Source: Cliona cf. orientalis
Lineage: Eukaryota; Porifera; Demospongiae; Clionaida; Clionaidae
DNA: 64,000 nucleotides
Direction of reading: 5' to 3'
NCBI GenBank assembly: GCA_963930775.1
Contig: OZ005691.1
Span: 1,426,001-1,490,000 of the forward strand
Both the position numbers and the translations under genes were made by a program. This document shows, in pieces, positions 5,001 to 9,161 of the stretch; the first letter of the stretch is position 1; each line of letters starts with the position of its first letter. Under the pieces are notes generated by a model. That model did no database searches. It was not told the origin of the DNA and saw only the letters and a list, made by a program, of their open reading frames with translations.

Positions 5001-8000
5001 GATTCCCAGGTCCCCCTTTGCCCCCCTTTCCTGGCCCCCCACACTTTGAGGCATTCCCACACCCAATGTTTATCCCCCCTGGTAAGTTAAAATACCGTAA
5101 ATCACGAATATTTCGTGTCTAAAATATTTCATGCAATAAATTTTCACGTTAAATAATTTTCGGACAAACGACCCTGTACCGCATTATGATTAATATTGCG
5201 CATGTATTTTCGTACGTTGAATTTTCGCACGAGTCAGCCTGTCCGAAAATATTTTAACAACGAAATATTCACGATTTACAGTATTGGTTATTTGTGTTGA
5301 TATTTGTTTTTTTTTATTCCGATTATGCTTATGATCTTGTGTAGGGCACCCGGAATTTATGCACCCGATGATGCCCCCTCGACCTGGGATGTTCCCCCCT
5401 CACCTTGGTCCCCCTGGCCCCCTTCATCCCCACGGCCACGGCAGGCACCCTCACCACGGCATGCCCATCCCCCCACCGTTTGCACCATTCCCTAAGGTAA
5501 CCATGCCCCCCACCCACCCCCACACACACACACTCACATAATACACTCACGCTCACACGCTCCCCTCCCCCCCCCCCCCCCCCCCCCAGGGTCCTAAAGT
5601 GTCCGAGGTAGCTGAGGAGTCTCAGGGCTGGTATCGACTGAGAACGGTCACCGAAGACTGGGACAGCGATGACGAGGATAACAGTAGAATGAAAAAGGAA
5701 GACCTCAAAACTGCATTAAAGGTACATACATGTACATTATAATATTAGTACCGTACTTAATCTAATACTATAGTATACATGTACATGTATGTATGAAATT
5801 TCAATTTTGAAAAACGTGCTCTTTTCTCATTAATCACGCCATATATGAGAATTCATACATATAAAAATTTCTTATATTAAATTGGATCATACATTCATGA
5901 TTGTAACTATGATATTGTAGCCTTTGTTCTGGTACATTCAGTATCTATACACACACACCTGTAGTGTACATGTACATCACTTATTTGCTTTTCACTGTGT
6001 CTGTTGTTCTCTATAGAAAAAGAAGAAGAGACACACTGGAGACGGAGAGAGAGGGGGAGAGGGCGGCAGAGCCGGGAGGTCGATGGGATCAGAGGAGTGG
6101 AGTGACCCCTGGGCTCGGCAGACCAGGACTAAGTACAAGAAGAAGATAAGTGGAGCGGTACGTGTACAATGTACATGTATGGTGACCCTGTACATGTATG
6201 TACATGTAGTTTTCAATTTAGGATTTTGTGAAAATTTCATATGCAAGACCTCATACCAATCCCATTTTAAACCTAAGGGGCAACAATCCCATGCCTGCTC
6301 AGGCAAACCTAATCCCAGCAAAAGGCAGAGTCGTTTAAGAATGTATATATCTTCATCTTGATTCTCCAGGACAATCTTGAAGATGTGAGCTCAGAGAGTG
6401 AGATGGAAGAGCTGGCAGCGCCAGTAGCGTCTCCCTCTCCTCCTCCGCTGAAGGCTAAGAAGAGGAAGAGAAGCAAGAAGGTGAAGGCGATGATGGAGAA
6501 GGTGTCTTCCTCCTCCTCTTTTTTGAGCGAGAGTGATGAGGATCCAACACCAAAGAAGAAGACAAAGAATAGGTGAGTCACGGTGTGGCTAGAGAAAGCT
6601 CACTATCAAGTTTGTTTTTTTTTTTGCATAATTGAGGTAGAAACTGTAACAATAGATGCTATACGACGTGACATACCACAGCCGCTTATTTGCAGATACC
6701 GTTTAGGCTTAGTGTTTGATTTCAAAGGAGCTGTTCTCATCTTCATTTTGTACTCTGTGAAATGTGATTCTTAATTTTCTTTACTGTTACTGTTGTTGAC
6801 TCTGAATTTTTAGCAAAAACGTGGTGGCAAAGAAGCAGGGAAGAGCCAAAGTGGATGCACCGAGCGGAGAGGAGAGTGACCGATCCTTCCCACCTCAACA
6901 AATTGATTCCTCCGAGGGAGATAATGACATCGTCAGTGAGGGGCGGGGCAAGAGGAAGAAACGGAGGGGATCGGTTACCATGGTGATACTACCAGAAGAG
7001 GAGGACGGGGCCAGTGATCTGTCGCCAAGGAAGAAACGGAGCAAGCTGTCGAGAGAGGATTCAAGCGATATCGAGGTCGAGGTGGAGAAGGTCAAGAAGA
7101 AGAAAAAGAAAGCTAAACGGCCACCTTCACCACCTGGATCACCTCCACCTGTGAGCCCTCCTATCTCTCTCTCTCTCCTCTCTCTTTCTCTCTTTTTTTC
7201 TCTCTCACTCTCTCTTCCTCTCTTTCTCTCTCTCTCTCTCTCTCTATTGTATGTATATGTGTGAGTGAGTGATTGACCGCACAAAATTATTAGTCGTACA
7301 TTTTGCATTTTTAGAGTGGCATCCATGAAGGTTTTGAAGAAGAGTATTATCATCACATGGCCCACCACCATCCTCACCATATCCCCCCTCCTTTCTTTGA
7401 TGCACCCCCTCACCCACACGCGTTCCCCCCTCCTGATCCATATGGTATTCCCCCCAGGCCCATAAGGGGTTCCAGAAGCCGAGGACCACCTCAATATTAC
7501 CACCGTCACCACCCCCCTCACCCTCACCACCACCATCTGCACTCCCCTTCCTCCCCTCCTCCCTCCACCTCCCCCCGTCACGGCAGACCACCACCCTCAC
7601 ACCGTCACCGCCCACACAATGACGAATTCTCCCCGTCACCACCTTCACATCACACACCCTCACCGCCACCACAACCTTCGAGACGTAGTCACGTGACCTC
7701 TTCGGACGGCAACAGCCGAAGCTCAAACAAGCGAGCTCAACGAGAAGAAAAAGAACGAGGAACATCGTCACAGGGATCGTATTATAGGAGAGAATCTGGT
7801 AAAGGTCGTCCATCTACTCCACCTGGAGATCCGTACTATTTGAAGAGGGAATCATCTGGTAAAGGTCGTCCGCGCACCCCACCCGAAGAACCCCCTTCCT
7901 ACTTCAGCAGGAGAGAATCTGGTAAAGGTCGTCCATCTACTCCACCAGAAGATGCTCCATACTTCAGAAGGGAATCTGGTAAAGGTCGTCCATCTACTCC

Positions 8001-9161
8001 ACCTGAGTACTACAGCAGAAGAGAATCTGGTAAAGGTCGTCCGTCCACGCCCCCTGAAGGACCACCACAATACTATAGGAAAGAATCGTCCAGGGGCCGT
8101 CCATCTACCCCACCAGAAGAACCTCTGACTTTGGGAGGCAGAGAGAGGGGTCGCTACCATGCCAGAGAGAAAGAAGTGTACATTGATAAGCGTATGCAGC
8201 CACAGTCACCCCCTCTTCATGAGGAGCAGGAATATCGTCGTCGCAAAAAACAGCCGTATCTGCAGCGTGACCGTCAAGAACAGCAGAGGTATCGTAGCGG
8301 GAACAGTAGTAGGAGATCTGGCGCTAATGCTGACTTTGTTAACGAAGAGGGGCGTCCCCTGTCTTGGGACGACGAGCGTATGAGTGGCGGCGGTGGTGAG
8401 GTTGAAGGTCGTCGCCATGGAAGCTCGGAAGACGGAAGCCGTAGTTTGACACCAGTGGCGGAGGATTGGCTAACAGACGAGGATGAAGCCACACCCCCAC
8501 CACCAAGGGCCGAGAGGGAGAGAAGACGAGGGGAGCGTCCCCCGTCCTTGCAGCAGCGGGGAGGGGGAGCCCCTGGAGGAGAATGGAGTAACGAGGGACG
8601 CAGTAAGATGTACGCTGGTGACAGAGAACAAAGACAAAGAGATGAGGTTCGTAAAGTATAATGCCGTACGTAGATCGTGAAATTTTTACTGTTAAAAAAT
8701 TTTCGTCAACGACCTTTTTCAACGAAAATTAAATATTTTGTGTCATTTTGGTTGCTCACTTAAAGTCTGGCGACGAAATTTAGACTATACGAAAAATTTA
8801 CAAGCGAAATATTTTACCCACAAAAATATCCCGCTCTACGGTATTAATTTTGTTACTGTACGTATGAGAGAGGATTCTTGACAAGAGGGGGTGGGAGGAG
8901 ACTTCTAGATACACTGGGGGGGGGGGGGGGGGGGGGTGGGGGGGGATTGAGGAAGGCGCCAAGCATGAGGTAAGGGCCAAAGAGAAAGCTATACAGGTAG
9001 TGAACTCATCAAATTTGTGTTCATTATATTCATCCCTTATATTATAGAGACCTGGAAGTAGGAGCGGTAGAGAGAACATGTACGACAGTAGTCATGACAA
9101 CCGTGAAAAGTATGTATATCAACAGCAAATGATTAAGAGGAAAAAATCATCACAATACTAG
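2049..9161 (+). CDS. ZC3H18: ZC3H18-like CCCH zinc-finger nuclear protein, 11 coding exons, about 1204 aa
   Basis: Exons: 2049-2342, 3518-3632, 3904-4521, 4905-5081, 5345-5496, 5590-5721, 6017-6157, 6370-6572, 6814-7150, 7315-8646, 9048-9161; all have GT-AG borders and phases join without stops. The N-terminus is very acidic (about residues 1-140), followed by Ser/Lys/Pro-rich sequence. One CCCH finger spans residues 337-355 (C-X7-C-X5-C-X3-H, with [11 protein letters not shown]) and is split by an intron. Pro/His/Met-rich linkers, Lys/Arg/Ser-rich tracts, and a C-terminal [11 protein letters not shown] repeat (about residues 877-995) follow. The W-G-x-N-C-R-F-x-H finger and acidic N-terminus match vertebrate ZC3H18, which links the nuclear cap-binding complex to RNA decay and export factors. 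Family assignment rests mainly on the finger. The last donor (GAG|GTTCGT) is weak; read-through would stop at 8659-8661. Confidence 0.62.
2356..2569. mobile_element. TACCGTA-ended MITE in ZC3H18-like intron
   Basis: The left end TACCGTATAGCGGGAAA and the right end TTTCCCGCTACTATACTG are imperfect inverted repeats; subterminal GGAGAAAAC and GTTTTCTCC motifs also pair. A related copy lies at 40805-41035. It starts 13 bp after a splice donor. No coding capacity. Confidence 0.6.
3120..3476. repeat. CA and TG microsatellites in one intron
   Basis: A (CA)n tract at about 3120-3163 and a (GT)n tract at about 3434-3476 lie in the same intron (2343-3517), complementary and about 270 bp apart. Between them are a GCGCATGCGC palindrome (3183-3192) and an exact TCTGGTAAAGGTCGTC copy (3235-3250). 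Confidence 0.85.
4537..4683 (+). repeat. (GA)n microsatellite after the donor inside the zinc-finger codons
   Basis: About 60 GA dinucleotides begin within about 16 bp of the exon donor at 4521. The host intron interrupts the CCCH finger. Confidence 0.95.
5093..5284. mobile_element. TACCGTA-ended MITE, about 190 bp
   Basis: The left end TACCGTAAATCACGAAT and right end ATTCACGATTTACAGTA are near-perfect inverted repeats. It sits in the intron between 5081 and 5345 and fills most of it. Confidence 0.65.
7775..8130 (+). repeat. Coding tandem repeat, six units of [13 protein letters not shown] type
   Basis: Within the 7315-8646 exon, six units of about 17-22 codons repeat an (R/K)[11 protein letters not shown](E) core. 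The DNA core TCTGGTAAAGGTCGTC is exact in five units (starting 7795, 7855, 7918, 7975, 8026); the sixth reads [10 protein letters not shown]. Spacers between cores carry Tyr-Tyr, Tyr-Phe and Pro. Ser-Thr-Pro-Pro next to Arg suggests proline-directed phosphorylation sites (inference). Confidence 0.9.
8662..8845. mobile_element. TACCGTA-type MITE at the last intron's 5' end
   Basis: Ends GCCGTACGTAGATCG and CTCTACGGTATT are roughly inverted, with AT-rich TTTTCG and CGAAAA motifs between. The element begins about 16 bp after the weak donor at 8646 and next to the alternative stop codon at 8659-8661. Confidence 0.5.

Follow-up and report, generated by a model that had tools for sequence, protein, structure and literature searches.

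A coding tandem repeat and its DNA core

The window that we analysed, a stretch of 64,000 nucleotides from Cliona cf. orientalis, contains a single open frame of 448 codons in which an amino-acid repeat is built around the DNA word TCTGGTAAAGGTCGTC, hereafter the 16-mer. When seven frames were scanned against Pfam, the single match was to the CCCH zinc finger PF18044 at 4829-5122 (E 5.8e-7), which would fit ZC3H18, the gene name given in a preliminary description of this DNA. A search for a solved structure related to the protein of this exon found none, and the repeat protein, used as a query against the genome, gave two matches, both at the array locus, so that no second coding array was found. 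The features of the array are as follows.

7315..8661, + strand: open reading frame (exon) with the repeat array (448-codon open frame)
7789..8042, + strand: coding tandem repeat, 16-mers 51-63 bp apart (Tandem Repeats Finder; unit comparison)
7795..7810, + strand: coding 16-mer, unit 1 (exact match)
7855..7870, + strand: coding 16-mer, unit 2 (exact match)
7918..7933, + strand: coding 16-mer, unit 3 (exact match)
7975..7990, + strand: coding 16-mer, unit 4 (exact match)
8026..8041, + strand: coding 16-mer, unit 5 (exact match)
8083..8118, + strand: sixth repeat unit, without the 16-mer (sequence reading, unit comparison)

The five coding 16-mers read SGKGR(P) and stand in one orientation within 247 bp. 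Together with three non-coding copies they make up the eight exact copies in the window (7795, 7855, 7918, 7975, 8026 and 3235 on the forward strand; 59963 and 61000 on the reverse), all located where the preliminary description had placed them, the reverse pair in introns that it called PLA2G6-like; the copy at 3235 is plausibly intronic, lying between open frames that end at 3040 and start at 3864. No match was seen in 100 dinucleotide shuffles of the window. Across the genome (216.8 Mb, 149 contigs) we counted 743 forward and 716 reverse copies, 1,459 in all, against an expectation of about 0.09 from base composition and zero copies of a control pattern read backwards, and the observation of a dispersed 16-mer therefore stands. 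A frequency no higher than chance had been named beforehand as grounds for abandoning the idea, and the count is clearly the reverse of that.

MITE-like elements carry most of the non-coding copies read

We read 58 sequence contexts of the 16-mer, comprising the 5 coding copies and 53 non-coding ones (3 from the window and 50 from loci L001-L048 of contig C1). Masking of the core left 44 of the 53 non-coding copies with a match to one of two types of miniature inverted-repeat element (MITE), 25 matching best to type A and 19 to type B, and 9 with a match to neither. All three non-coding copies in the window lie inside such elements.

3179..3342, + strand: MITE type B copy, left end decayed, 16-mer at 3235-3250 (nhmmer E 5.9e-34)
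59868..60028, - strand: MITE type A copy, 16-mer at 59963-59978 (nhmmer E 8.7e-26)
60906..61079, - strand: MITE type A copy, 16-mer at 61000-61015 (nhmmer E 1.7e-29)

The elements measure approximately 173 bp (type A 172 bp, type B 174 bp, in consensus sequences composed by eye from copies). Comparison of the consensus ends gave imperfect terminal inverted repeats of about 25 bp that start TACCGT in both types, and the fuller copies begin with TACCGT and end with ACGGTA, with an apparent TA at both ends when read by eye, which may be a target-site duplication. Flank-anchored patterns that placed no condition on the core found 419 type A and 197 type B copies genome-wide. Terminal inverted repeats, short length and many copies are features of MITEs. 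The 16-mer is both dispersed and largely borne by mobile elements, as the preliminary description had proposed.

Inside these elements the core is often lost. Among the matches listed, an exact core was present in 7 of 30 type B and 24 of 43 type A copies, the samples being the contig C1 entries among 100 listed for each type. The losses fall mostly at the CpG, and a good part of those in type B comes from a subfamily with GTCATC. Outside the CpG, core positions differed in 2-4% of cases, compared with 6% in a type B control stretch (the first 30 of 100 listed control entries), a difference too small for us to claim constraint on them. Strong constraint on the core within MITEs was considered and rejected, given this decay at the CpG.

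The bases beside the 16-mer separate the coding from the non-coding copies. Among the 53 non-coding copies it is preceded by T in 92% and followed by A in 98%, whereas the coding copies are flanked by A upstream and C downstream. Neither the T nor the A is present in just 15 of the 1,459 genomic copies, five of which are the coding array; the longest open frames through the other ten, taken over both strands, measure 34 to 136 codons.

A wider motif in unrelated sequence contexts

A wider, non-palindromic motif of about 14 bp, GGTAA(A/T/G)GGTCGTCA, takes the form of the 16-mer in MITEs. Its 13-bp form with two free positions, GGTANNGGTCGTC, occurs 10,209 times in the genome (5,221 forward and 4,988 reverse), 42-fold more often than the reversed control (241), and GGTAATGGTCGTCA with at most one mismatch occurs 10,625 times versus 148 for its control. 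The window holds 13 copies of GGTANNGGTCGTC, of which 5 are coding, 3 lie in MITEs and 5 elsewhere, the last being these:

155..167, - strand: generic motif GGTAAGGGTCGTC, without MITE match (pattern match; flank singleton)
25858..25870, + strand: generic motif GGTAAAGGTCGTC, without MITE match (pattern match; flank clustering)
29372..29384, - strand: generic motif GGTAAGGGTCGTC, without MITE match (pattern match; flank clustering)
30926..30938, - strand: generic motif GGTAATGGTCGTC, without MITE match (pattern match; flank clustering)
51545..51557, + strand: generic motif GGTAATGGTCGTC, without MITE match (pattern match; flank clustering)

To characterize generic copies we used 48 of them in 40 stretches of the first 1.67 Mb of C1, taken among the matches listed, with places bearing the exact 16-mer excluded and part of the minus-strand copies falling outside the sample. 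In this set the sixth motif position is A in 50%, T in 38%, G in 10% and C in 2%, and A follows the 13-mer in 81%. The coding copies lack this typical A after the core, and the MITE cores decay, two observations that run against the reading favoured below.

With the motif masked, the same 48 listed copies fell into 14 flank clusters and 12 singletons (BLAST E 1e-4, 28 bp or more). Three of the 14 clusters are two copies within one fetched locus (L077, L083 and L100) and L078 clusters with the overlapping locus L003, leaving ten flank groups with members at separate places, one of them pairing L082 with L022 (91% over 266 bp). Five of the eight non-coding motif copies in the window are flank singletons. 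The motif is therefore not the word of one repeat, and its over-representation extends across unrelated sequence contexts. It is real and strongly non-random: an element-borne, dispersed motif accompanied by an unusual coding array.

Such a motif could be a relic by descent from one ancient repeat superfamily, the centre of which outlived its flanks with no role in the host; some SINE superfamilies have conserved central domains. Many copies are indeed borne by repeats, and nhmmer shows the two MITE types to be related (E 2.4e-21). The other flank groups, however, are mutually dissimilar at the same BLAST cut-off and vary among A, T and G in the middle position, and the singletons keep the motif with no recognizable flank relative among the sequences compared, which leaves descent from a single repeat an unlikely account.

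The motif might alternatively act in RNA, as a splicing signal, a small-RNA target or an mRNA-binding site. Its GGTAA would resemble the start of an intron and the coding copies are all on the sense strand of the open frame, but strands are balanced genome-wide (743/716 for the 16-mer, 5,221/4,988 for the 13-bp form) and Rfam gave no match at threshold in the window, and we regard a role in RNA as very improbable. An explanation by a known RNA family was rejected, all Rfam families scoring below threshold throughout the window.

CpG retention around the motif

Of the first 100 listed copies of GGTAATGGTYRTCA, 89 had an intact CpG, versus 74 of the 100 listed first for the MITE form TTTTCTGGTAAAGGTYRTCA (Fisher P 0.010); the former set lies mostly outside MITEs, although the T form also occurs in one listed type A copy. 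The observed/expected CpG ratio was 0.77 around 38 non-MITE loci, compared with 0.61 for the window background (P 0.0015), and GC content at these loci showed no rise over that background (P 0.066). The ratio was higher still, 1.02, around 38 exact-16-mer loci, so its elevation is not special to the non-MITE copies; moreover, age and constraint are confounded because copies were chosen for an exact motif. These figures would fit a motif that is retained, or kept unmethylated, outside MITEs.

A promoter role for the non-MITE copies was also considered and set aside, with GC flat and the CpG ratio highest at the exact-16-mer loci. NRF1-like words were present at 3 of the 40 loci of the generic motif, among the matches listed.

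Silent sites within the coding array

Over the ten pairs formed by the five units with a 16-mer, the codons of the SGKGR core show no differences, while the adjacent PSTPP codons show 31, of which 27 are synonymous; the sixth unit is left out of these counts. The core is identical at synonymous sites, as the preliminary description had it, while neighbouring silent sites vary. Counted by eye as events, none of eight silent changes falls in the core (P 0.007), or none of seven when the change common to units 2 and 5 is counted once (P 0.013). Choosing units by an exact core favours low silent variation, and the sixth unit therefore matters: it has silent changes at core positions, and its inclusion gives 2 of 12 events in the core (P 0.034, again by eye). 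Given SGKGR and local codon usage, the five core codons have a probability of 3.8e-4.

Silent variation is accordingly lower in the motif than in neighbouring codons, the pattern expected of codons in dual use, and this moderate evidence suggests that the core codons may be constrained at the level of DNA or RNA. The main alternative to constraint on the nucleic acid is homogenization between tandem units. Such units readily exchange sequence, and gene conversion between them could likewise preserve identical cores.

On that account the codons would have been used once by chance and the cores then homogenized by unequal crossing-over or gene conversion, with the motif having no role here. Ready exchange between tandem units and the divergence of unit 6 favour it, and the 241 genome-wide matches of the reversed 13-bp form mean that some chance coding match of the short form is to be expected. 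Against it, the exact 16-mer is expected only about 0.09 times genome-wide by composition, the probability of the codon match is the 3.8e-4 given above, and conversion tracts in units 2 and 5, which differ in the codons next to the core, would have to end at its borders. We consider coincidence followed by homogenization to be on the unlikely side.

Origin of the array

The preliminary description combined the dispersed, mobile-borne motif and the silent identity, both of which held, with the idea that the coding repeat was seeded by exonization, which found no support; its interpretation is thus borne out in part. For that to be the case, a MITE fragment with the core would have become exonic and then been amplified with the protein repeat. 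Several observations speak for it: the coding core is the MITE form, including a TCT before GGTA that is atypical of generic copies; the gene region also contains a type B MITE; and one MITE copy (L058) has C after the core and continues CATCACTCCA, compared with CATCTACTCCA in the coding copies. The similarity of coding units to MITEs, however, ends at exactly 16 bp. Comparison of the coding-unit flanks with the type A and type B consensus sequences gave no homology beyond chance outside the core (P 0.05 under synonymous recoding and 0.09 under shuffling). No MITE match with E of 0.01 or below was found in the vicinity of the array, and the coding core has an atypical base on either side. With a match limited to the 16-mer, flanks short of significance and atypical neighbours, exonization is possible but unproven, and in our estimate improbable; the array may just as well have originated where it now lies.

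A candidate protein-binding motif

The reading that we favour, tentatively, is that of a dispersed candidate protein-binding motif, spread in part by MITEs, with an exonic array of five sites kept at silent positions. GGTAA(A/T/G)GGTCGTCA would most likely be recognized by a single abundant, sequence-specific protein, and a multi-finger zinc-finger type would suit the length of the motif. MITEs and several other repeat groups would carry and multiply it. In the exon, five putative sites would lie in SGKGR codons and be kept at synonymous positions, in which case the codons would serve the protein and a DNA signal alike. Protein binding, selection on the exonic sites and any effect on the gene are what we infer from sequence patterns.

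A bolder version is conceivable, in which a lineage-specific architectural or regulatory protein would have some ten thousand sites seeded by MITEs and other repeats, and the SGKGR of the CCCH-gene exon would be dictated by the motif; we think this improbable as a whole. If a host protein does bind the motif, it would open a way into the organization of the genome in this lineage and show clearly how mobile elements can distribute binding sites. The coding array would then belong to the rare repeats whose residues and codons are both explained by a DNA motif in addition to protein function.

Comparison with known systems

Literature searches for the 16-mer and its complement found no paper; among the matches listed for the 13-bp core and its complement, the short word TGGTAAAGGTC alone occurs, and the motif did not appear in the titles and abstract openings listed. 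The motifs named for the sponge Amphimedon, in the text available from two articles, are Sp1, NRF1, KLF, EGR, E-box, YY1/Kozak, poly-CT, GAGA-like, Irx, SOX and POU (PMC4773876, PMC5429095); the string 'GGTC' is absent from the main text available for both, in which motif logos are figures.

The carrier elements resemble the inverted-repeat MITEs of DNA transposons in their length of about 173 bp, imperfect terminal inverted repeats of about 25 bp, apparent terminal TA and hundreds of copies. The coding array can be likened to 'duons', dual-use codons with transcription-factor sites, in that its codons double as a candidate DNA recognition site and show reduced silent variation; unlike duons, it would be a tandem homotypic array of putative sites inside an amino-acid repeat.

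Three further comparisons come from one article on chromatin loops, as far as its available text goes (PMC12221973). It reports loops to be absent in the sponge Ephydatia muelleri; should the present genome be that of a sponge, this would weigh against a role in looping. It describes a GC-rich loop-anchor motif in ctenophores, bound by CTEP1 and CTEP2; like the Cliona motif this contains CpG and has thousands of sites, the two being compared by description, but it has two CpGs and is GC-rich whereas the Cliona motif has one CpG. Finally, placozoan Mutator terminal repeats are reported there to carry a loop-anchor motif at promoters, with Micro-C support. That motif sits in terminal repeats, whereas the Cliona motif is found close to the middle of short MITE-like elements as well as in many other flanks; the placozoan case is backed by Micro-C and the Cliona motif is known from sequence alone, the likeness being one of description and not of motif sequence. 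In both, a dispersed motif borne by DNA transposons in an early-branching animal has a proposed regulatory use in the host, and within the text available the placozoan Mutator terminal repeat is the closest published case that we found.

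Distribution of the motif along the contig

Among the matches listed for exact copies of the 16-mer that recurs in the coding repeat, all of which lie on contig C1 of the same genome, 80 of 100 fall before 13.6 Mb and the remaining 20 at 15.0–27.1 Mb. Nine copies of the 174-bp type B MITE among the matches listed, at 19.8–37.1 Mb of C1, have in common GGTCATCACGTGCTCC, preceded by further bases.

Clustered and duplicated copies

Four of the loci fetched around motif copies (L095, L096, L098 and L103) constitute one repeat group. Of the 48 places read in the first 1.67 Mb of C1 that carry the generic motif (the wider 13-bp form), 8 belong to this group, within which copies are often spaced about 370–390 bp apart with a shared orientation. 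At a further locus, L060, three motif forms occur near one another, namely GGTAACGGTCGTC, the inverted GGTATAGGTCGTC and the 16-mer. Two loci approximately 11 kb apart on C1 (L092, 929 kb; L093, 940 kb) are identical over the 133 bp compared around the motif.

Other repeats in the window

The window additionally contains two weak matches to MITE types A/B that lack the exact core, a G run where sequencing was possibly difficult, and a tandem duplication.

2564–2628 (+), weak MITE match, E = 0.0065
5749–5914 (+), weak MITE match, E = 1.1e-6
8916–8945, poly-G tract, about 30 nt, 93% match
58082–58201, 60-bp unit duplicated in tandem, both copies identical (100% match)
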